Assembly (NCBI RefSeq): GCF_014652535.1
Contig: NZ_BMYZ01000001.1
Span: 558,001 to 622,000 of the forward strand
DNA: 64,000 bases
Reading direction: 5' to 3'
From: Cellvibrio zantedeschiae
Lineage (GTDB): Bacteria; Pseudomonadota; Gammaproteobacteria; Pseudomonadales; Cellvibrionaceae
Shown here: in pieces, positions 3,616 through 49,360 of the stretch
Position numbering within the stretch: position 1 is the first letter of the stretch
Layout of the letters: every line of letters begins with the position of its first letter
Position numbers and translations under genes: made by a program
The notes under the pieces: model-generated
The model's database searches: none
The model's input: the letters and a program-made list of their open reading frames with translations, nothing else
What the model was told of the DNA's origin: nothing

Positions 3616-4647
3616 ATGATTCGCCGTCCCTGTTCATTTTCAAAAATAACCAGTCGCCAGATATTTTTACTTTTTGCTTTATGTGCTTGCCCATGGGCTA
3701 TGGCTGCTGATTTGCAGCCTGCTGTTGCTGCCTATAAAGATAATCAGTTGGCGCAAGCAAAATCCTTATTCGAAGCTGCTTCGAAAGATCAATCAGCTAG
3801 AAATGAAGCGCTTTATTATATGGGACGAATTGCGTTTGATGAGGGGGATGCAGAAAAAGCCAAAGATTATTTAAGCCAATCGGTTGAAATCGAACCCAAT
3901 ACCTCAGACGAATATTATTGGTTAGGGCGTGCTTATGGTGAGCTTGCACAAAAAGCCAATATTTTAAAGCAGGCCTCATATGCTTCTAGCGTGCATAAGT
4001 ATTTTCAACTGGCTGTTGAAGTGGACCCAAAGAATATTGCAGCTCAACGCGGGTTGTTTACTTTTTATATAATGGCTCCCGGTATCATGGGTGGCGGTAT
4101 TGATAAAGCGGAAAAGACATTGGCTGATCTTCGTGTCTTATCGCCAGTCGATGCTGATATCAAACAATTGGATCTTTTGGCCAAAAAGGAAGAGAAAGAT
4201 AAGCACCTTGCTCATGCTAAATATTTGGTAGCAACTTATCCACAATCTGCTGAAGCTCTATTTTCAGCGGCGCATGTTTTTCGCAATCATAAAATGTTGA
4301 ATGAAGCTATCGCCCAATTTGAAATTGCGTCGAAGCTGCCTGTTACTCCACAAAATCGCATGTTTGTTGAAAACTCTACCTATTCGTTTGGCGAAACCTG
4401 TTTATGGGCTAATTCACGGATTGATGATGCTATTGTTAGTGTCGAAAAGTTTCTATTGCTCAAATTGGATGCTAAGAACTTTAACAAGAATTGGCCTTTA
4501 TGGACTTTGGCTAAATTGCAGCGTCAAAAAGGCAATATGGAAAAATATCTAAACCTGCGTAGGCAACTCGATCCTGCATTTATAAAACAAGATAAGTGGA
4601 TGCGAGAAGAAGTGGAAAAAATTGATAAAGAGGACAAAAAGATCTGA
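3616..4647 (+). CDS. Exported tetratricopeptide-repeat protein
   Basis: 343 aa with a signal peptide: a basic start (MIRRP), a hydrophobic core FLLFALCACPW and a likely cleavage after AMA near residue 30. TPR units follow. The clearest are ALYYMGRIAFDEGDAEKAKDYL and the later segment around residues 210-240 (AEALFSAAHVFRNHKMLNEAI). It should sit in the periplasm as a protein-interaction scaffold; no catalytic domain is visible. An AAAAGGA ribosome site lies just before the ATG. Specific partner and pathway are unknown, and the neighbours give no hint. Confidence 0.8.
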   Translation: MIRRPCSFSKITSRQIFLLFALCACPWAMAADLQPAVAAYKDNQLAQAKSLFEAASKDQSARNEALYYMGRIAFDEGDAEKAKDYLSQSVEIEPNTSDEYYWLGRAYGELAQKANILKQASYASSVHKYFQLAVEVDPKNIAAQRGLFTFYIMAPGIMGGGIDKAEKTLADLRVLSPVDADIKQLDLLAKKEEKDKHLAHAKYLVATYPQSAEALFSAAHVFRNHKMLNEAIAQFEIASKLPVTPQNRMFVENSTYSFGETCLWANSRIDDAIVSVEKFLLLKLDAKNFNKNWPLWTLAKLQRQKGNMEKYLNLRRQLDPAFIKQDKWMREEVEKIDKEDKKI

Positions 4648-4660
4648 AGCTGAAAATAAA

Positions 4661-4690
4661 AAAGGGTTAGCTGATAGCAGCTAACCCTTT
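4661..4690. terminator. Bidirectional intrinsic terminator
   Basis: A 13-bp perfect inverted repeat (AAAGGGTTAGCTG, 4-nt loop ATAG, complement) is flanked by A and T runs on both sides. It sits between two convergent genes, 13 nt after the TPR gene stop and 17 nt from the aldo-keto reductase stop, so it can end both transcripts. Confidence 0.9.
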
Positions 4691-4706
4691 TTCTTACGCA
4701 TGCTAA

Positions 4707-5720
4707 TTAACGAATAATCGCATCAATTTTTGCAATATCATCTGCACTAAATTCAAGATTGTTTAACGCAGCAACCGAATCTTCAATTTGTGATGGACGG
4801 CTGGCACCTATCAAGCAAGTGGTTACAGCTTCATTGTGTAAGGTCCAGGCAATAGCCATTTGTGCGAGCGATTGTCCGCGTGATTCGGCAATTGCGTTTA
4901 ATTGCTGAACTTTCGCCAACTTTTCTGGTGTGATGTCCTTATTGTTCAAATAAATTAATTCCGGACGTGCCGCGCGTGAATCGGCAGGAATCCCGTTTAA
5001 ATATTTGTTGGTTAAAACACCCTGCGCCAGTGGTGAGAACACAATGGAGCCAACACCTTCAGTTTTGAGAACATCAGTCAAACCATCTTCAATCCAGCGG
5101 TCAAACATGTTGTAACGTGGTTGGTGAATTAATAAAGGTGTGCCTAGTGATTTTAAAATATCGACTGCTTTTTTAGTTTGCGCGGGTTGATAATTTGAAA
5201 TGCCAACATAAAGCGCGCGGCCTGAACGCACAATATAATCCAGCGCTTGCATGGTTTCTTCGATGGGTGTTTCAGGATCCATGCAGTGATGATAAAACAC
5301 ATCAAAATATTCCAAACCCGTGCGCTTTAAACTTTGGTCGCAACTGGATACTAAATATTTGCGTGAGCCGCCAATACCGAAAGGGCCTGGCCACATATCG
5401 TAACCGGCTTTGCTGGCAATAAATAATTCATCGCGATAAGGTGCAAAGTCTTGTTTGTGAATAGTGCCGTAAGTGATTTCCGCAGAACCGAAATTGGGGC
5501 CGTAATTGTTGGCTAAATCGAAATGGTTAATGCCTAAATCAAACGCTTTACGTAACATAGCGCGTGCATTTGCAACGGAATCTACAGCACCAAAATTTTG
5601 CCACAAGCCAAGTGATAAGCGCGACAATTGCACGCCGCTTCTGCCGCAGCGTTTGTACTTCATGGTTTTGTAGCGTTCCGGATTGGCTACATAAATTGGG
5701 TTTGGCTCATGGGTAATCAT
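4707..5720 (-). CDS. yghZ: Aldo/keto reductase, YghZ (L-glyceraldehyde-3-phosphate reductase) type
   Basis: NADPH-dependent aldo/keto reductase, 337 aa from the ATG at 5720, which has a GAGG ribosome site; the open frame continues 27 codons upstream without an RBS. The N-terminus (RYKTMKYKRCGRSGVQLSRLSLGLWQNFG) is characteristic of E. coli YghZ/Gpr and of the Kv-beta-like branch. The catalytic tetrad is readable as Asp68, Tyr73, Lys104 and His144/145 (DLANNY, ASKAGY, FYHHC). The family detoxifies L-glyceraldehyde-3-P and methylglyoxal in the cytoplasm. It is monocistronic. Confidence 0.9.
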   Translation of the reverse strand: MITHEPNPIYVANPERYKTMKYKRCGRSGVQLSRLSLGLWQNFGAVDSVANARAMLRKAFDLGINHFDLANNYGPNFGSAEITYGTIHKQDFAPYRDELFIASKAGYDMWPGPFGIGGSRKYLVSSCDQSLKRTGLEYFDVFYHHCMDPETPIEETMQALDYIVRSGRALYVGISNYQPAQTKKAVDILKSLGTPLLIHQPRYNMFDRWIEDGLTDVLKTEGVGSIVFSPLAQGVLTNKYLNGIPADSRAARPELIYLNNKDITPEKLAKVQQLNAIAESRGQSLAQMAIAWTLHNEAVTTCLIGASRPSQIEDSVAALNNLEFSADDIAKIDAIIR

Positions 5721-5915
5721 TGGAGGCCTCTTGATAATTGTTTTGGCATTGCCGTTGGAGAAGGGTAGAGCTGGGAAAGGACAGCATTTTAGCCCATGCA
5801 AAGGAGCTGGCGTATAGGCTTATTGTAAAGAAGCGTCTTATTTTTTAGGTTAGTGTTGAGTTGATCTGAGCAATTGATTTTATGCTTTGGTTGACTATGT
5901 AATTAGGGGCAAGCA

Positions 5916-6518
5916 ATGAAAGTAATGGTCGTTTTTCCTACTTCGACTGAAGCACATTTTTTTTCACATCCGCAAGTCGTCACGGCAATTTGCGGCGTGG
6001 GGTTATCGGCTGCTGCTTACAATACCGCTAAATTGATTGCTCAACATAAGCCTGACTGGATGATCATGGCAGGCATTGCCGGTGTATATCCCCATTCGCA
6101 ATTTAAGATTGGCGATGTCGTTTTGGTGGAAAGTGAATGCGAATCTGATTTGGGATTTTTTACCCCGAACGGCTTTACCCATCTTGCTGATTTAGATTTA
6201 GCAATGGATTTTAGTGTGACCAAGCATTGGGGATGTCCACATTTGCCATCTAACTCTGTATTGCCGATTGCAAAAAGTAATTCTATGAATGCAGCCATGG
6301 CGCCGTTTATCAACATTCAAGATGCAGATATTGAAAACATGGAAGGAGCTGCTTTTTTTCAAGTTTGTTTGGCGGAACAGCAAGGGTTTTTAGAAGTGCG
6401 AAGTATTTCTAATGTCGTAAGGATTGGTGATGATGATTGGGATATGGAGGGATCAATTCGCATACTTACCGAAGGTTTGCATAAGCTGATTGATTATTTA
6501 TTGGCTTCGGAGCCGTGA
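5916..6518 (+). CDS. Nucleoside phosphorylase/futalosine hydrolase-like protein
   Basis: 200 aa, PNP/UDP phosphorylase fold. Visible family features are the GVGLSAAAYNTAKLI nucleotide/phosphate-side loop near residue 30, the GIAGVYP segment near 56, and ENMEGAAFF near 145, the conserved Met-Glu that binds ribose in MTA/SAH nucleosidases and futalosine hydrolases. RSISNVVRIGDDDWD corresponds to the catalytic-Asp region. The protein is shorter than typical MTA/SAH nucleosidases. Futalosine hydrolase is the closest named type I can suggest, but no other menaquinone gene is present, so the substrate is uncertain. RBS AGGGGC lies before the ATG. Confidence 0.7.
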   Translation: MKVMVVFPTSTEAHFFSHPQVVTAICGVGLSAAAYNTAKLIAQHKPDWMIMAGIAGVYPHSQFKIGDVVLVESECESDLGFFTPNGFTHLADLDLAMDFSVTKHWGCPHLPSNSVLPIAKSNSMNAAMAPFINIQDADIENMEGAAFFQVCLAEQQGFLEVRSISNVVRIGDDDWDMEGSIRILTEGLHKLIDYLLASEP

Positions 6519-6551
6519 GTTTGGTCAAGAGTGAGCCAAAGGCGCAGGGCT

Positions 6552-6580
6552 TAAAATAAAAAGGCCGCTTTCGCGGCCTC
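6552..6580 (-). terminator. Intrinsic terminator of the GGA-rich RNA
   Basis: Read on the minus strand: a 7-bp G/C-rich stem (GCGGCCT with its complement) closed by a GAAA tetraloop and followed by TTTTTATTTT. There is no U tract on the plus strand, so it terminates minus-strand transcription rather than the phosphorylase gene on the plus strand. Confidence 0.88.
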
Positions 6581-6783
6581 GGTGCAGATATTGTCCATAA
6601 ACTCTGTAGTAGTCAGTGCTCTGGTCCGTCTCTATCCCTGTTAACCCCTTGGGTTTATTCCCTTAGCCATTCATCCATCGTCAATCCGTTCCTGGCCGCT
6701 CCTGAATCTCCTGACGTTCTCCTTTAAGGGGACGCCTCCATTGACCTTTCCTGGCCGATTTACTCACTGTCTACTTCCTGATG
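6552..6783 (-). ncRNA. Candidate CsrB/RsmY/RsmZ-family regulatory RNA (CsrA-titrating)
   Basis: No ORF fits here. On the minus strand the segment 6778-6594 contains 13 GGA triplets in about 185 nt (TCC on the plus strand at 6776, 6749, 6737, 6720, 6709, 6700, 6690, 6685, 6674, 6659, 6635, 6625, 6594). Five of these are in the context CAGGA, the core of CsrA-binding sites. The RNA would end at a GNRA-loop terminator with a U tract (6580-6552). A -10-like GATAAT lies at 6795-6790 and two GacA-box-like dyads lie 65 and 88 bp upstream of the inferred start. Known CsrB/RsmZ RNAs sequester CsrA/RsmA through repeated GGA loops, and csrA is present at 30655. The 5' end is inferred. Confidence 0.72.
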
Positions 6784-6789
6784 TTGCTC

Positions 6790-6818
6790 ATTATCCAGAG
6801 AATGACGGCAGATAAACA
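6790..6818 (-). promoter_or_regulatory. Putative promoter of the GGA-rich RNA
   Basis: Minus-strand -10 GATAAT (6795-6790), a 17-bp spacer, and a poor -35 TGTTTA (6818-6813). A good -10 with a weak -35 is what an activator-dependent promoter would look like, consistent with the dyads just upstream. Confidence 0.5.
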
Positions 6819-6836
6819 GTCGCTAAATTCGGTAAG

Positions 6837-6883
6837 TTTTGTAGGAAATTGACTACAGAGCTTGTAGTCAATCTCCTACAAAA
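6837..6883 (-). promoter_or_regulatory. Two tandem GacA/UvrY-box-like dyads inside a 21-bp inverted repeat
   Basis: Two 18-bp elements of form TGTAG-N8-CTACA lie at 6840-6857 and 6863-6880, and are themselves arms of a near-perfect 21-bp inverted repeat (one mismatch, 5-nt centre). GacA/UvrY sites upstream of csrB/rsmY/rsmZ have the form TGTAAG-N6-CTTACA; these differ by one base per half-site. There is no U tract on either strand, which argues against a terminator. The centres fall about 65 and 88 bp upstream of the inferred RNA start. Confidence 0.6.
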
Positions 6884-6908
6884 TTGTCGTTCAAGTTAAC
6901 AATAAAGC

Positions 6909-8315
6909 TTATTTGATGACTTTGTAGCAGGGTTTGTATTCGCGCCCCGGCAGCTTCATGCGGTTTTGTTTGGCGAAGGATTCGAGGAGTTCGTCTACAG
7001 GATGCATGATTTCAGCGTCCCCATGAAGCTCAAAGTGGCCAAACTCCTCAATGGTGCGAATGCCTTCTTCTTTCACGTTACCAGCAACAATGCCAGAAAA
7101 GGCACGACGCAAGTTTGCGGCCAACAAATGACTAGGCTGATTCTTATGCAGTTCCAGATTGCGCATGTTGTCGTGTGTGGGAATAAACGGATGCTGTAAA
7201 TCCGAGCTAATCGTAAGCTGCCAGTTGAAGTAATAGGCGTCATCGCTTTGCTTGCGGAATTCGCGCACTTTCTTAATGCCATCCACCATTTCACGAGCGA
7301 CTGCTTCCGGGTCATTAACGATAATTTTGTAATGGGCTTGCGCTTCAGGGCCAAGTGTATCGCCAATAAATCTATCGACACGCTCAAAGTATTCAGCCGA
7401 GCTGGCAGGGCCGGTAAACACGAGCGGGAAGGGGATATCTTTGTTATCGGGGTGCAGCAAAATACCCAAAATGTAGAGGATTTCCTCAGTGGTACCTGCG
7501 CCGCCAGGGAATACGATAATGCCGTGACCAAGGCGCACAAATGCTTCCAGGCGTTTTTCAATATCCGGCATGATCGTCAATTGGTTAACGATGGGGTTAG
7601 GCGCTTCAGCTGCAATAATTCCCGGCTCGGTAATGCCGATGTAACGACCATTAGGCGTACGCTGTTTGGCGTGACCGATGGTGGCGCCTTTCATTGGGCC
7701 TTTCATGGCGCCGGGACCGCAACCGGTGCAAATATCCAAGCTGCGTAAACCTAACTGGTAACCAACTTCTTTGGTGTAGTCATATTCACCGCGGCTAATG
7801 GAGTGGCCGCCCCAGCACACCACGAGGTTCGGATCTTGCCCCGGATGCAGCAAGTTGGCATTACGCAGCATATGGAACACCGCATCAGTAATACCTTCCG
7901 TAGTATCAACATCGAAATTTGGGTTTTCGTTAATCGCGTCGTTGTTGTAAATCACATCGCGCAGCACGGTAAACAAATGCTCGCTAATACCTTTAATCAT
8001 TTTGCCATCGACAAACGCATTGGCCGGTGCATTTTTTACGGCGAGTTTAATGCCGCGCTCCTGCTGCACAATGCTGATATCAAAATTGCTGTAGCGCTCT
8101 AGCAATTCTTTGCCGTCATCCAAATCGTTACCCGTGTTCAACACGGCGAGCGAGCAGCTACGGAATAATTTGTACAAACCGCTTTGGCTTGAATCCAATA
8201 ATTTGGCGACTTCAACTTTAGATAAAATATTCAATTGCCCGTGGGGCGAAATGGTAGCGTTGATAGTTTCGAAGTTATGATCGGGAGCGATTTTGTACGG
8301 ATGATTGTGTGACAT
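6909..8315 (-). CDS. ppnN: Pyrimidine/purine nucleotide 5'-monophosphate nucleosidase PpnN
   Basis: 468 aa, matching PpnN (YgdH). The enzyme hydrolyses nucleoside monophosphates to free base and ribose-5-phosphate, and in E. coli it is activated by (p)ppGpp. The LOG/lysine-decarboxylase-like core carries TGCGPGAMKGPMKGA near residues 197-211 and the diagnostic FPGGAGTTEE at 269-278. The N-terminal extension (residues 1-140) and the C-terminal tail are those of the long PpnN type rather than the short cytokinin-type LOG proteins. It is monocistronic, with the GGA-rich RNA locus immediately downstream on the same strand. Confidence 0.93.
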   Translation of the reverse strand: MSHNHPYKIAPDHNFETINATISPHGQLNILSKVEVAKLLDSSQSGLYKLFRSCSLAVLNTGNDLDDGKELLERYSNFDISIVQQERGIKLAVKNAPANAFVDGKMIKGISEHLFTVLRDVIYNNDAINENPNFDVDTTEGITDAVFHMLRNANLLHPGQDPNLVVCWGGHSISRGEYDYTKEVGYQLGLRSLDICTGCGPGAMKGPMKGATIGHAKQRTPNGRYIGITEPGIIAAEAPNPIVNQLTIMPDIEKRLEAFVRLGHGIIVFPGGAGTTEEILYILGILLHPDNKDIPFPLVFTGPASSAEYFERVDRFIGDTLGPEAQAHYKIIVNDPEAVAREMVDGIKKVREFRKQSDDAYYFNWQLTISSDLQHPFIPTHDNMRNLELHKNQPSHLLAANLRRAFSGIVAGNVKEEGIRTIEEFGHFELHGDAEIMHPVDELLESFAKQNRMKLPGREYKPCYKVIK

Positions 8316-9592: not shown

Positions 9593-10255
9593 ATGAATTA
9601 TTTACCCTGTATTGAAGTGCAATCCAATCCGAAAATTGCTGTGTCAGCTTCGGTCATTTGGCTGCATGGTTTGGGCGCTGATGGCAATGATTTTGCCCCG
9701 TTGGCTCGTGAGTTGCGGCTGCCTGAAAATCTAAATGTACGTTTTATTTTTCCAAATGCTCCGTCGATACCCGTTACTGTAAATAACGGTTATGTAATGC
9801 CAGCTTGGTATGACATTTTTGAGTTGACGCTGGATCGCAAAATAGATGCTACGCAACTGCGCGCAAATGCAGAAAAAATCCACGCGTTAATTGAACGCGA
9901 AATTGAGCGCGGTGTACCGAGTGAGAAAATTGTTATTGCCGGTTTTTCACAGGGTGGAGCGGTGGCGTATGAAGCGGCTTTAAGTTACGGAAAACCTTTG
10001 GCAGGTTTGTTGGCGCTATCCACCTATTTTGCGACGACTGAAACTTTGATAGAAAACTCTGCAAATAAACAGATTCCTATTTTAATTCAACATGGTTCCG
10101 GTGACTTTGTTGTTGATGAGGTGTTGGGGCAGCGCGCGTATCGTGAGTTGTCTGATCGTGGTTATAGTGTGAAATATGAAACTTATAATATGGATCATAC
10201 GGTTTGTGCGGAGCAGGTGGATGATATTCGGAAGTGGTTGTTGGAGAGGATTTGA
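9593..10255 (+). CDS. Carboxylesterase/phospholipase, alpha/beta hydrolase
   Basis: 220 aa cytoplasmic serine hydrolase of the carboxylesterase/acyl-protein thioesterase family. The oxyanion segment is WLHGLGADGNDF (residues 23-34). The nucleophile elbow is GFSQGG with Ser119, and Asp171 (GSGDFVVD) and His202 (MDHTVC) complete the triad. The NAPxxPVTxxNGxxMxAWYDI stretch near 55-75 is typical of bacterial carboxylesterases acting on short-chain esters. An AAGGAAAC RBS lies 6 nt from the ATG. No operon partner. Confidence 0.88.
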   Translation: MNYLPCIEVQSNPKIAVSASVIWLHGLGADGNDFAPLARELRLPENLNVRFIFPNAPSIPVTVNNGYVMPAWYDIFELTLDRKIDATQLRANAEKIHALIEREIERGVPSEKIVIAGFSQGGAVAYEAALSYGKPLAGLLALSTYFATTETLIENSANKQIPILIQHGSGDFVVDEVLGQRAYRELSDRGYSVKYETYNMDHTVCAEQVDDIRKWLLERI

Positions 10256-10342
10256 TTCGGTGCTGTTTGCAAGTAATAGGATTGGTACTAATACATCTAT
10301 GCGAGGATGACGATTCCCTACTTAATATGTTTGTGTGAAAGA

Positions 10343-11419
10343 TCAGGTCAAACACGCCGGATCAAAAGTATATCCACCACTCAACCAATCAATAATTTCC
10401 GCACAAAAAGGATTGGATGGAAATGTAGAATAACGTTCCAATAATTCCGCTTTTTCTTCCTCGCTCATTTTAGCCAATCCTTTGTCTTGCAATAGTGGTA
10501 AATCATGCAGCAATGCCTGCGCTAATTCGTCACCACAAAGTTCTGTCGTCACTTCAACAAATACTTTTTCAGGTTGGTAATTATTTTTTTCATGATAGGC
10601 ATGTGGTAGCGATGCCAAGGGGATCTGCGAAAGCCAAGGTTGGTTCATGGGATTAAGCGCATGCCCCGCAACATGATCTTGAATTTGGCTGTGCGATTGA
10701 TTCATTGCACGCAGTTGCAATAGATTTGATTTCGCCGCGCTGTCGTTAACGGGATAGTTATCCCACAAAAAAGGTTTGCGGCCTAATAGATCTTCAACGT
10801 GTGTGAGATGGTGGACAGAATATTCTGTTGAACATACTTTTTCTCCCGTCCAAAAAATATCAATTTCTTTATCGAGATTTTTATTTAAATCCTGCCAATA
10901 ATTTTCTGGCATCTTGCCAAAAACTTTTTCAAGCACAGGGTCAAAGCTGTAATAGGTTGGGCAAAAAATAATGCGCTTGGCGGTGCTAGCTGCTGCAACC
11001 TCGTGCATGTAATCAATTTGCAGGTTGGCGAGGTTGGGAATATCGCCGCGCATATCGTCAAATAGCAGGCACAAAATATCGGGCGCCAATTCGTTTATGT
11101 GATTTACGCGCGCAATTAATTGTTTGCGATTGTCGTGAGTGTTATCGATATAAATTTCATGGGGGCTTAAGCCAATACCGAAATCTATATTGGCTGTGCG
11201 ATAGGTTTCGCGTAATTGAATGAGCGGTTGTTTAATTTCTTTTGGCCAATCTTGCTGCCATGTCTTGCGCAGATATTTGTCGTCTTTTGGTGCATAGATA
11301 TAAAAGTTGAACTCATTTAGTGCAAGAAATTTTGCATAGCTTTCGCGCTCTGCCCATGGCCAGCTACGGCCAAAAAAACCTTCAATAATTCCCAGTGCGG
11401 GGGTGTTTATTGTGTTCAC
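10343..11419 (-). CDS. GH84-type beta-N-acetylglucosaminidase domain protein
   Basis: 358 aa from a GTG start with AAGG upstream. It opens with IIEGFFGRSWPWAER, the start of the GH84 (hyaluronidase/O-GlcNAcase) TIM barrel, followed by FNFYIYAPKDD. The catalytic Asp pair is at 121-122 (LLFDDMRGD), and IFCPTYYSFDP follows. Substrate-assisted hydrolysis of beta-GlcNAc is the known GH84 activity. There is no signal peptide, so it should act in the cytoplasm, which is unusual for a polysaccharide degrader and suggests trimming of imported or recycled amino-sugar glycans. It is single-domain and shorter than clostridial or Bacteroides homologues. Confidence 0.85.
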   Translation of the reverse strand: MNTINTPALGIIEGFFGRSWPWAERESYAKFLALNEFNFYIYAPKDDKYLRKTWQQDWPKEIKQPLIQLRETYRTANIDFGIGLSPHEIYIDNTHDNRKQLIARVNHINELAPDILCLLFDDMRGDIPNLANLQIDYMHEVAAASTAKRIIFCPTYYSFDPVLEKVFGKMPENYWQDLNKNLDKEIDIFWTGEKVCSTEYSVHHLTHVEDLLGRKPFLWDNYPVNDSAAKSNLLQLRAMNQSHSQIQDHVAGHALNPMNQPWLSQIPLASLPHAYHEKNNYQPEKVFVEVTTELCGDELAQALLHDLPLLQDKGLAKMSEEEKAELLERYSTFPSNPFCAEIIDWLSGGYTFDPACLT

Positions 11420-30630: not shown

Positions 30631-30650
30631 ACAGGATGAGTGAAGGAGAT
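30631..30650 (+). promoter_or_regulatory. CsrA-site-like GGA pair over the csrA ribosome site
   Basis: ACAGGATGAG (30631-30640) matches the core of the CsrA high-affinity consensus (RUACARGGAUGU). A second GGA (30645-30647) is the csrA Shine-Dalgarno itself. Eight bases separate the two GGA triplets. The layout fits CsrA repressing its own translation, known in E. coli. Confidence 0.55.
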
Positions 30651-30654
30651 TGAA

Positions 30655-30849
30655 ATGCTAATTTTAACTCGCCGTATTGGTGAAACTTTGATGGTTGGTG
30701 ATGAAGTCACTGTGACCGTCCTTGGTGTAAAGGGTAACCAGGTACGTATCGGTGTCAATGCGCCAAAAGATATAGCCGTTCATCGCGAGGAAATTTATCA
30801 ACGTATTCAGCGTGAAAAGCAAAATTCTGACGACCAAAACTCGTTTTAA
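30655..30849 (+). CDS. csrA: Carbon storage regulator CsrA/RsmA
   Basis: 64 aa RNA-binding dimer that controls translation and stability of mRNAs with GGA sites. [51 protein letters not shown] is a near-canonical CsrA, including Arg44 in the VHREE region that contacts RNA. The ATG at 30655 with GAAGGAG upstream is preferred to an in-frame codon at 30640. Its leader carries two GGA sites, and a candidate antagonist RNA lies at 6.55-6.78 kb. Confidence 0.98.
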
Positions 30850-47839: not shown

Positions 47840-49360
47840 ATGTCTGAAGTTCGTACCCGTATTGCCCCTTCACCCACTGGCGATCCGCACGTAGGCACCG
47901 CTTACATTGCACTTTTCAACCTCTGCTTTGCCCGCCAGCATGGTGGCAAGTTCCTGTTGCGTATTGAGGATACTGACCAAACCCGCAGCACGCCGGAATC
48001 AGAACAGGCGATTTTGGACAGCTTGCGCTGGTTGGGTTTGGAGTGGGATGAAGGCCCGGATGTAGGTGGCCCGCACGGTCCTTATCGCCAAAGCGAGCGT
48101 ATGGATATGTACGGCAAATACGCCATGGAGTTGGTGGAAAAAGGCCATGCTTTTTATTGCTTTGCTACCTCGGAAGAGTTGGACGAAATGCGCCGCGAGC
48201 AAATCGCCAAGGGCCAAACGCCGCAATACGACGGTCGCGGTTTAAAGTTGTCTGCTGAAGAAGTGCAAGCAAAACTCAACGCGGGCGAGCCTTATGTAAT
48301 CCGCATGAAATTGCCGACCGAAGGCGTGTGCGAAATTGATGACATGCTGCGCGGCAAAATTGAAATTGAATGGTCGCAGGTGGACATGCAAGTTCTGTTA
48401 AAAGCAGACGGTATGCCGACTTACCATTTGGCTAACGTGGTTGATGATCATTTAATGAAAATTACTCACGTAATTCGCGGTGAAGAATGGATCAACTCTG
48501 CACCCAAGCATCTTAAACTTTACGAATATTTTGGCTGGCAAGCACCTGTGCTGTGTCATTTGCCATTGCTGCGCAACCCGGATAAATCCAAACTCAGTAA
48601 GCGCAAAAACCCAACGAGTATTCTCTACTACAAACGCATGGGTTATTTGCCAGAGGCTATGTTGAATTACCTCGGCCGTATGGGTTGGTCAATGCCAGAT
48701 GAGCGCGAAAAATTCACGCTGCAAGAAATGCAGGCGCATTTTGATTTGAAGCGCGTGTCTTTAGGTGGCCCGATTTTCGATGTAGAAAAGCTCAGCTGGT
48801 TAAACAGCTTGTGGATTCGCGAAAACTTTACCATCGAACAACTTGCCGAGCGCATTCATAATTGGGCGTTTAACAAAGAGACTTTGTTGCAAGCCTTGCC
48901 GCACGCGCAATCGCGCATGAACACCTTGAGCGATTTCGCACCCCTGGCGAGCTTTTTGGTGTCGGGCATGTTGAATATCAACGAAGCCAGCTTTGCCGGT
49001 AATAAGCTCGATATTGAAAAGCAAAAGGAATATTTGCAGTTCGCGCTTTGGCGTATGGAAGCTTTACGCTTCTGGGATCGCGATAACATTTTCAATGAAT
49101 TGAAGCTGCTTGCTGATCAAATGGGTATCAAACTTAAAGATGCGCTTGCGCCAATTTTTGTTGCTATTGCAGGTACCACTGCGTCTTTCTCGGTTGTGGA
49201 TTCCATGCAAATTATTGGCCCTGACATGAGCCGCGCACGTTTGCGTCACGCGGTAAATGCCTTGGGTGGTTTCGGTAAGAACAAGCAAAAAGAGTTGGAC
49301 AAGATTTATGCCCAATTAGGTAAAGAGCAAGATGAAACTGCCGAAGCTCCGCAAGAGTAA
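47840..49360 (+). CDS. gltX: Glutamyl-tRNA synthetase
   Basis: 506 aa from the ATG at 47840; the open frame runs 34 codons further upstream without similarity. Class I synthetase, motifs [22 protein letters not shown] (HIGH) at residues 6-27 and [12 protein letters not shown] (KMSKS type) near 253. [15 protein letters not shown] and [12 protein letters not shown] are also family-typical. It charges tRNA-Glu. Single gene, ended by a strong bidirectional terminator. Confidence 0.97.

Follow-up and report, generated by a model that had tools for sequence, protein, structure and literature searches.

A candidate GacA-activated, CsrA-sequestering small RNA beside ppnN in Cellvibrio zantedeschiae and its promoter-defined siblings in the Cellvibrionaceae

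In the genome of Cellvibrio zantedeschiae (G000; 4.27 Mb in 12 contigs), the stretch at positions 6552-6883, read on the minus strand between ppnN and a converging gene, very probably encodes a GacA-activated small RNA that sequesters CsrA, one of about five siblings in this genome and a member of a set spread over the Cellvibrionaceae. We put the probability of this reading at roughly 0.9. All coordinates without a contig name are those of the window, the whole 64-kb stretch of DNA analysed (G000:C1:558001-622000). An RNA of this kind had been proposed in an earlier note on this DNA, and the proposal is supported by a conserved proximal box, by GGA-rich sites found through their promoters, and by genes for both GacA and CsrA.

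From the promoter and its conservation, a GGA enrichment that is strand-specific at most sites, a conserved core hairpin and genes for both GacA and CsrA, we infer transcription of the candidate, binding of GacA and of CsrA, and a physiological effect. In the mechanism that we propose, an autonomous small RNA of about 230 nt, ending at its own terminator, would be made from a promoter with only a -10 element, activated by phosphorylated GacA, which would occupy a palindromic box some 65 bp ahead of the start, with the help of a reader of the sequence GCSACTAT over the -35 region. Many A(N)GGA sites of the RNA, some of them in or next to short hairpin loops, would bind CsrA dimers, which would thereby be held off their target mRNAs, presumably when the sensor pair GacS/GacA is active.

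The candidate locus, its promoter and its neighbour ppnN

The conserved upstream neighbour of the candidate is ppnN (6909-8315, minus strand; NF038390, 767.8 bits against a cut-off of 450), and the converging gene on the other side (5916-6518) has futalosine hydrolase as its top match, under the cut-off of that model. The predicted RNA, with its start placed from the -10 element, spans 6552-6783 on the minus strand and holds 13 GGA motifs in about 230 nt. It ends at an intrinsic terminator hairpin (6561-6580, minus strand) followed by a T-run to 6552, and the stem 6580-6561 was the sole terminator-like site that a terminator scan returned within 6400-7000. The GNRA loop ascribed to this terminator is present, as GAAA, but it varies in relatives. 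No ORF of at least 60 aa covering the candidate RNA was found on its strand, all three forward frames being interrupted by stops; like a CsrA-sequestering small RNA, the candidate stands between genes, contains no ORF and has an intrinsic terminator of its own.

Reading the sequence again confirmed the 13 GGA triplets in 185 nt on the minus strand, the highest count among all 185-nt stretches on both strands of the 64 kb, where the next non-overlapping stretch has 9. With an RNA as purine-rich as the candidate, dinucleotide shuffles make this plain count look less unusual, 13 being reached by 352 of 5000; 38 of 5000 reach its A-N-GGA count, and only 3 of 5000 reach five CAGGA, a number that was also found as first given. 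The candidate therefore carries many GGA and ANGGA motifs on one strand, above chance, as a CsrA-sequestering RNA would, although plain GGA taken alone is weak evidence for it. Two of the next GGA-dense stretches of the window (around 10192-10426 and 47968-48202, plus strand) showed no box or terminator by eye.

Upstream of the predicted start lies the putative GacA/UvrY box TGTAGTCAATTTCCTACA (6840-6857, minus strand), centred at about -65 and recognised by alignment, by the promoter model R1 described below and by its likeness to the UvrY box of PMC4682653. It is followed by a linker and by the -10 element GATAAT (6790-6795, minus strand; columns 63-68 of promoter alignment A1), and a consensus scan of the candidate promoter found no full sigma-70 site. 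On the far side of this proximal box, an 18-bp GacA-box-like dyad, TGTAGGAGATTGACTACA (6863-6880, minus strand), was read from the sequence; the two dyads are near-exact inverted copies, with 5 nt between them and 21-nt arms that differ by one mismatch. Both of the dyads that had been described are thus in the sequence, but as inverted and not tandem copies, and by eye only the proximal one is conserved in relatives, where it appears to be the upstream, conserved GacA/UvrY box expected of a CsrA-sequestering RNA. Among 20 aligned loci the distal dyad is intact only in the window and, by eye, degenerate in G017 and a few close species. A role of the distal box as a conserved second GacA site was rejected, since it is limited to the species of the window and a few close ones.

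The half-sites had been said to differ by one base from the Pseudomonas TGTAAG, which is true of TGTAGG but not of TGTAGT, and the idea of a lineage-specific half-site had to be given up, as TGTAGG boxes are present too in another family of the order (L199, L201). The Cellvibrio box variants TGTGAGATATCTCCTACA and, on the other strand, TGTGAGACATTGACTACA are very close to the UvrY boxes printed in the accessible part of PMC4682653, which gives TGTGAGAGATCTCTTACA, centred at -183, as the UvrY site of E. coli csrB and TGTGAGACATTGACCATT as that of Salmonella csrC. In P. aeruginosa, the GacA sites are placed at -75 (rsmY) and -196 (rsmZ) in the part of PMC4950607 available to us, so a box centre about -65 from the predicted start gives the window promoter an rsmY-type and not an rsmZ-type geometry.

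At the DNA level, a search of 57 genomes with the stretch matched 21, namely its own, 19 of the 20 other Cellvibrio genomes and, with one weak 30-nt match, a genome of another family; none of the 15 genomes of other Cellvibrionaceae genera gave a match. With G011 as the one exception among 21 Cellvibrio genomes, the promoter site adjoins ppnN at its 3' end, as it also does at four of 29 loci read outside the genus (L086, L138, L140, L141). Farther away, 58 other genomes had a strong ppnN match, and 3' flanks were taken from 19 of them; the pattern used found a box at none of these 19 flanks, which hold at most 9 GGA in 200 nt save for one stretch. That the RNA goes with ppnN throughout the class was rejected on account of these 19 flanks without a box. 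The stretch that stands apart, at the ppnN 3' flank of G162 (L189), has 12 GGA in 200 nt on the strand opposite ppnN and no recognisable box, and is left open. In E. coli, csrB lies near ppnN (L044:2451-2810 and 4603-5967) but not at its 3' end, as syd and queF stand between them; we regard this nearness, which may be chance or remnant synteny, as a lead only.

The stretch might also be read as the 3' UTR of ppnN carrying a dispersed palindromic repeat, with no separate RNA gene. Its two boxes do form an inverted repeat with 21-nt arms right after the ppnN stop, and similar sequences recur in the same genome. However, the inverted double box is confined to the species of the window and a few close ones, whereas a single box, linker and -10 are found at fixed spacing across the family; moreover, the sibling copies adjoin unrelated genes, and in G011 the site is present although no ppnN lies within the 1.5-kb flank examined. 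We consider this reading hardly credible.

Promoter-defined loci across the Cellvibrionaceae and their GGA content

The GacA-activated RNA that we favour would be one of several, as indicated by a search with promoters. Orthologous and paralogous sites, 34 in number and all from Cellvibrio, were aligned gap-free across the 76 nt that run from box to start, and model R1 was built from these promoter sequences alone. Within a sample of 120 Cellvibrionaceae genomes, R1 sites were found at E <= 0.01 in all 21 Cellvibrio genomes, with 2-14 matches each (some cut at contig ends, and one in the genome of the window being the inverted distal box), and in 48 of 99 genomes of other genera, 51 being missed. 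In the control, 17 of 273 other genomes of the class gave matches, weak and mostly partial, the best at E 3.8e-4, and 36 of the 99 other family genomes outscored the best of these 273. The E-values are rough and the class control is the less sensitive one, because fewer candidates were scored per genome (17 for the class, 40 for the family, 150 for the genus). On this comparison of 48 of 99 family genomes with 17 weak matches in 273 class genomes, the full promoter looks like a trait of the Cellvibrionaceae.

The set analysed further comprises 113 distinct sites above 24 bits, of which 43 had first been reached through similarity to the whole stretch or through the box pattern and 70 through the promoter model; orthologous sites among them are not independent. 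At 15 bits or more, 114 sites were counted, one of them the inverted distal box of the window. Outside the genus, 29 loci were read (9 + 20), drawn from the better-scoring part of the hits, and 28 of them lie above the score limit.

Five promoter sites in the genome of the window head GGA-bearing stretches. The window site and L031 (C3:158188, beside glycosyltransferase and acyltransferase genes) each have 13 GGA in the 230 nt downstream, and there are 11 at both L054 (C1:2432269, beside leuA) and L055 (C1:2215773, beside DTW and DUF3530 genes). The fifth, L047 (C3:173787), has four, and is flanked on one side by a gene for an MshE-related c-di-GMP-binding domain and on the other by xseB and a polyprenyl synthetase gene. 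L047 and the group of L022, L023, L027 and L038 are sibling types with only about four GGA in 230 nt and with the boxes closest to the UvrY consensus, which suggests a shorter RNA, or one with another role. In the Cellvibrio draft genome G006, 14 R1 matches were counted, several of them equal in score and located at contig ends; either recent amplification of one small RNA gene or assembly fragments would account for this number.

A further box of the C. zantedeschiae genome, TGTAAGATATCTCGCACA (C1:1979127-1979144, minus strand, within L050, C1:1978300-1980000), is found upstream of a gene for a small ComEA-like helix-hairpin-helix protein (TIGR00426, 76.5 bits). It is followed by a linker, CGAATTTTGCCAGTA, that resembles those of the small RNA promoters, and the promoter match is weak (13.7 in an earlier promoter matrix). 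This comEA-like gene is possibly a direct GacA target at the level of its mRNA.

Sites selected on their promoters are rich in GGA downstream of them. At the 70 sites reached through the promoter model, the 230 nt downstream contain 9.30 GGA on average; the complement has 1.63 and the upstream sequence 2.63, and at 65 of the 70 the complement has fewer GGA. The ANGGA count there is 3.21 times what the dinucleotide composition predicts, and 68 of these sites exceed that prediction. At the 28 sites outside the genus the mean is 11.4 GGA against 1.1 on the complement, with an excess at every one. Over all 113 sites, GGA reaches 1.60 times and ANGGA 3.24 times the expectation, ANGGA being above it at 110, and the groups of 43 and 70 sites agree on the enrichment. 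GGA is also the commonest of the 64 triplets there, at 9.65 against 9.62 for the overlapping AGG, and GAG, TGG and GGC are under expectation. Fewer than five GGA were counted at 21 of the 113 sites, and 12, including L047 (4 vs 5), show no excess over the complement. When the RNAs were clustered, 56 fell into a single group and others into numerous small groups, with no similarity detected from group to group, so the richness in GGA persists after sequence similarity has gone. A strict terminator scan detected a terminator-like site at 52 of 113 sites, and none for three of the five in the genome of the window.

Among orthologues at the ppnN flank, conservation was followed in an alignment of 19 sequences, from which G011 and G015 were omitted. 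Identity to the window base is higher in GGA columns than in the others (0.78 vs 0.61, p = 0.0008), also against other G/A columns (p = 0.003), both values ignoring kinship. All 19 orthologues share three of the GGA triplets and 18 share a fourth, but five triplets survive in just 5-6 of the 19. The conservation of GGA looked for in these orthologues when the RNA was first proposed is hence real for the columns as a whole and for the three invariant triplets, but does not extend to five of the 13. A well conserved 5' region, GGAAGTAGACA, was seen in the same alignment.

One of the invariant triplets (6737-6739, minus strand) stands just 3' of a core hairpin, GGCC-AGGAAA-GGTC (6743-6756, minus strand), which has a 6-nt loop and, in 45 distinct members, compatible changes at its third pair (G-U in 25, A-U in 17, G-C in 3). 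A hairpin with a 6-nt loop followed by N-GGA-N-GCG was found at 50 of 113 sites (39 of 85 in the genus and 11 of 28 outside). The pair counts among the 45 members are biased in favour of pairing, since the search pattern holds part of the 3' arm constant and the loop length giving the greatest number of pairs was used. Past the first four pairs, breaks in the stem are frequent, as at the fifth and sixth pairs. For the 19 orthologues, RNAalifold gave 25 pairs, which form an outer stem and two short helices besides the core hairpin and the terminator; six of the pairs have both partners changed in one or more sequences. The fold of the single RNA is not more stable than those of its shuffles (z -1.43, 18/200). 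The G residues of GGA are unpaired with a mean of 0.54 over the 19 orthologues, against 0.30 for other G; compared with other G/A, GGA sites are just moderately more unpaired, and they fall below them in three of the 19.

A GacA-controlled small RNA could instead act mainly by base-pairing with mRNAs, its GGA richness being secondary, and the 5' region GGAAGTAGACA is indeed longer than GGA sites alone would need. Pairing would not, however, require that ANGGA be enriched at 110 of 113 sites despite RNA groups without detectable similarity, and we hold this alternative to be very unlikely beside the sequestration of CsrA.

The linker element and its counterparts in rsmY promoters

To judge from the alignments, the linker contains a new second promoter element, GCSACTAT, which is held at a fixed spacing between the box and the -10 and occurs family-wide. 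In the window, the conserved linker element is TACCGAATTTAGCGACTGT (6816-6834, minus strand; about -51 to -33), one base off the core consensus, the family consensus being TANCGANNTTNGCSACTAT; the core outside the genus is TTTGCCACTAT, from which the window copy, GCGACTGT, differs by that one base. Over the 113 sites, linker columns 24-42 carry 20.0 bits (19 columns, 1.05 per column), against 24.4 for the box, 8.1 for the -10 and 4.0 for the 20-nt spacer (0.20 per column). In Pseudomonas rsm promoters, the linker between GacA box and -10 was reportedly found by Humair and co-workers in 2010 to be essential and yet poorly conserved.

Counterparts of the element were looked for in 31 Pseudomonadaceae rsmY loci, the best 30 from the 51 of 79 genomes above the cut-off plus L224. 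These were placed by the GacA box alone, L236 being dropped for want of a box and the proximal box of L250 being chosen by eye, and the register test was run on 30 sequences and on 20 representatives with less than 75% identity. Scored with the Cellvibrionaceae matrix, the mean for the linker core peaks at offset 0 of 22 offsets, a result that none of 2000 shuffles reached. The means themselves are negative (-7.6 bits for the 30 sequences and -4.3 for the 20 representatives), and the rsmY linkers are therefore to be seen as relatives of the element and not as plain matches to it. The upstream half of the linker also beats the shuffles in rsmY, yet offset +3 scores as well as 0. One rsmY promoter holds TTGCCACTAT exactly, and five of the 20 representatives score below -15, with a similar word one base further on by eye. 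In four rsmZ promoters, which have a distal box, the linker core scores from -17 to -23.

The linker core thus stands in the same register from the box as in rsmY-type promoters, with a negative mean log-odds, and the element appears recognisable in register in most of the sampled Pseudomonadaceae rsmY promoters. Given this register match and the low rsmZ scores, it seems ancestral to proximal-box promoters. Its reader may be a second GacA contact, another activator or a sigma factor; for E. coli, the accessible part of PMC4682653 describes crosslinking of UvrY near -35 as well, with no visible repeat there.

Two readings of the element were weighed. According to the first, GCSACTAT would be an ancestral and essential second site of proximal-box GacA promoters, serving as a half-site on which a second GacA dimer docks or as the target of a co-activator, common to the Csr/Rsm RNAs of the Cellvibrionaceae and to Pseudomonadaceae rsmY and defining a direct GacA regulon that includes mRNA genes such as the comEA-like one; we advance this tentatively, as a conjecture with slightly less than an even chance of being right. 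The second concerns the linker only and takes GCSACTAT for a -35 hexamer, unusually spaced and touched by the housekeeping sigma factor, with no further regulator, which we find rather doubtful while giving it real weight. The element overlaps -40 to -33, "GAC" also occurs within TTGACA, and a standard sigma-70 site was not found in the window's promoter. On the other hand, 22 nt separate GCSACT from the -10 hexamer, where 16-18 would be usual, and conservation reaches upstream to TANCG, with 20.0 bits in 19 columns, beyond what a hexamer needs.

Known Csr/Rsm RNAs, regulators and meaning for the family

The Rfam covariance models for CsrB and the Rsm RNAs, to which the earlier note had pointed as a check, gave no family match. 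RF00018 (CsrB; Rfam 15) reached its gathering score at none of 19 Cellvibrionaceae loci, whereas the E. coli csrB control scored 384 bits; RF00018 and RF00195 (RsmY) had no match up to E 10 in window positions 6500-6950; and RF00166 (PrrB_RsmZ), above its cut-off in four of 145 genomes of the order, had none at E 0.01 in the genome of the window. Membership of the CsrB, RsmY or RsmZ families of Rfam was rejected on these grounds.

The candidate nevertheless shares traits with each of these families. RsmY (RF00195) shares the promoter plan: its GacA box starts 74-79 nt before the start of the RNA model at 29 of 31 loci, or at 30 if the proximal box is taken for L250, the linker core is in register in most of them, the -10 (TAATCT) falls near columns 63-68, and GGA are many. 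RsmY differs in being about 120 nt long with 7-8 GGA (four loci counted), against about 230 nt and 13 GGA for the candidate, and in a half-site that is mostly TGTAAG and not TGTAGT or TGTAGG. CsrB of Enterobacteria (RF00018) resembles the candidate in being long and rich in GGA and in the kind of UvrY/GacA box that it has, but in E. coli this box is centred at -183, with a putative IHF site between, according to the accessible text of PMC4682653. RsmZ/PrrB (RF00166) also has a GacA box and many GGA, and is set apart by its distal box, with its centre about -171 from the model start in two of four Pseudomonadaceae loci by the pattern used, and by the absence of the linker core in register at four loci.

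Several GGA-rich RNAs per genome within one lineage are also found in Pseudoalteromonas (Pf1-Pf3), of which Pf2 and Pf3 bind CsrA, as stated in the part of PMC11882849 at hand; that lineage is a different one, and the likeness is drawn from the description. Multiple copies are similarly mentioned in the available parts of other sources, with RsmZ1-7 and RsmY in Azotobacter (PMC4824345), CsrB1-4 in Vibrio tasmaniensis (PMC6262261) and RsmX copies in Pseudomonas (PMC7911923). Among the open-licence papers listed by our text searches, none described Csr/Rsm RNAs in Cellvibrio or the Cellvibrionaceae.

Both regulators that the candidate would depend on are encoded in the genome. The GacA orthologue (C1:1735281-1735922) scored 275.6 bits, just under the curated cut-off of 280, with the genome's next response regulator at 89.7, and its gene is followed by uvrC (TIGR00194, 642 bits) and pgsA (TIGR00560, 178 bits), which is the classical gene order. 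A GacA match, in all cases under the cut-off (269.6-278.9 bits), was obtained in 17 of 18 Cellvibrio genomes searched, and none in G010. The csrA gene noted earlier in the window was confirmed at 30640-30849 on the plus strand (PF02599, 86.9 bits; NF002469, 120.9 bits against a cut-off of 73), with the match starting at the sixth codon of the ORF, and its product is the proposed target protein. A second CsrA homologue was detected at C2:502892-503050 (NF002469, 75.6 bits against the same cut-off of 73). Teredinibacter turnerae we take to belong to the same family as Cellvibrio. It is reported to have GacS, GacA and two CsrA proteins, a pair called unusual, in PMC2699552, the text of which mentions neither "sRNA" nor "small RNA".

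Large sets of genes are under the control of Csr/Rsm RNAs, and the candidates in the Cellvibrionaceae escape the Rfam models that were tried. The family is known for the degradation of plant polysaccharides. Since the promoter model recognises such loci regardless of the sequence of the RNA, it offers a way to find them, with several siblings per genome. In addition, the conserved linker provides a concrete, mutable target for the older puzzle of the linker in Pseudomonas rsm promoters, and the element within it may explain how GacA switches on such genes.
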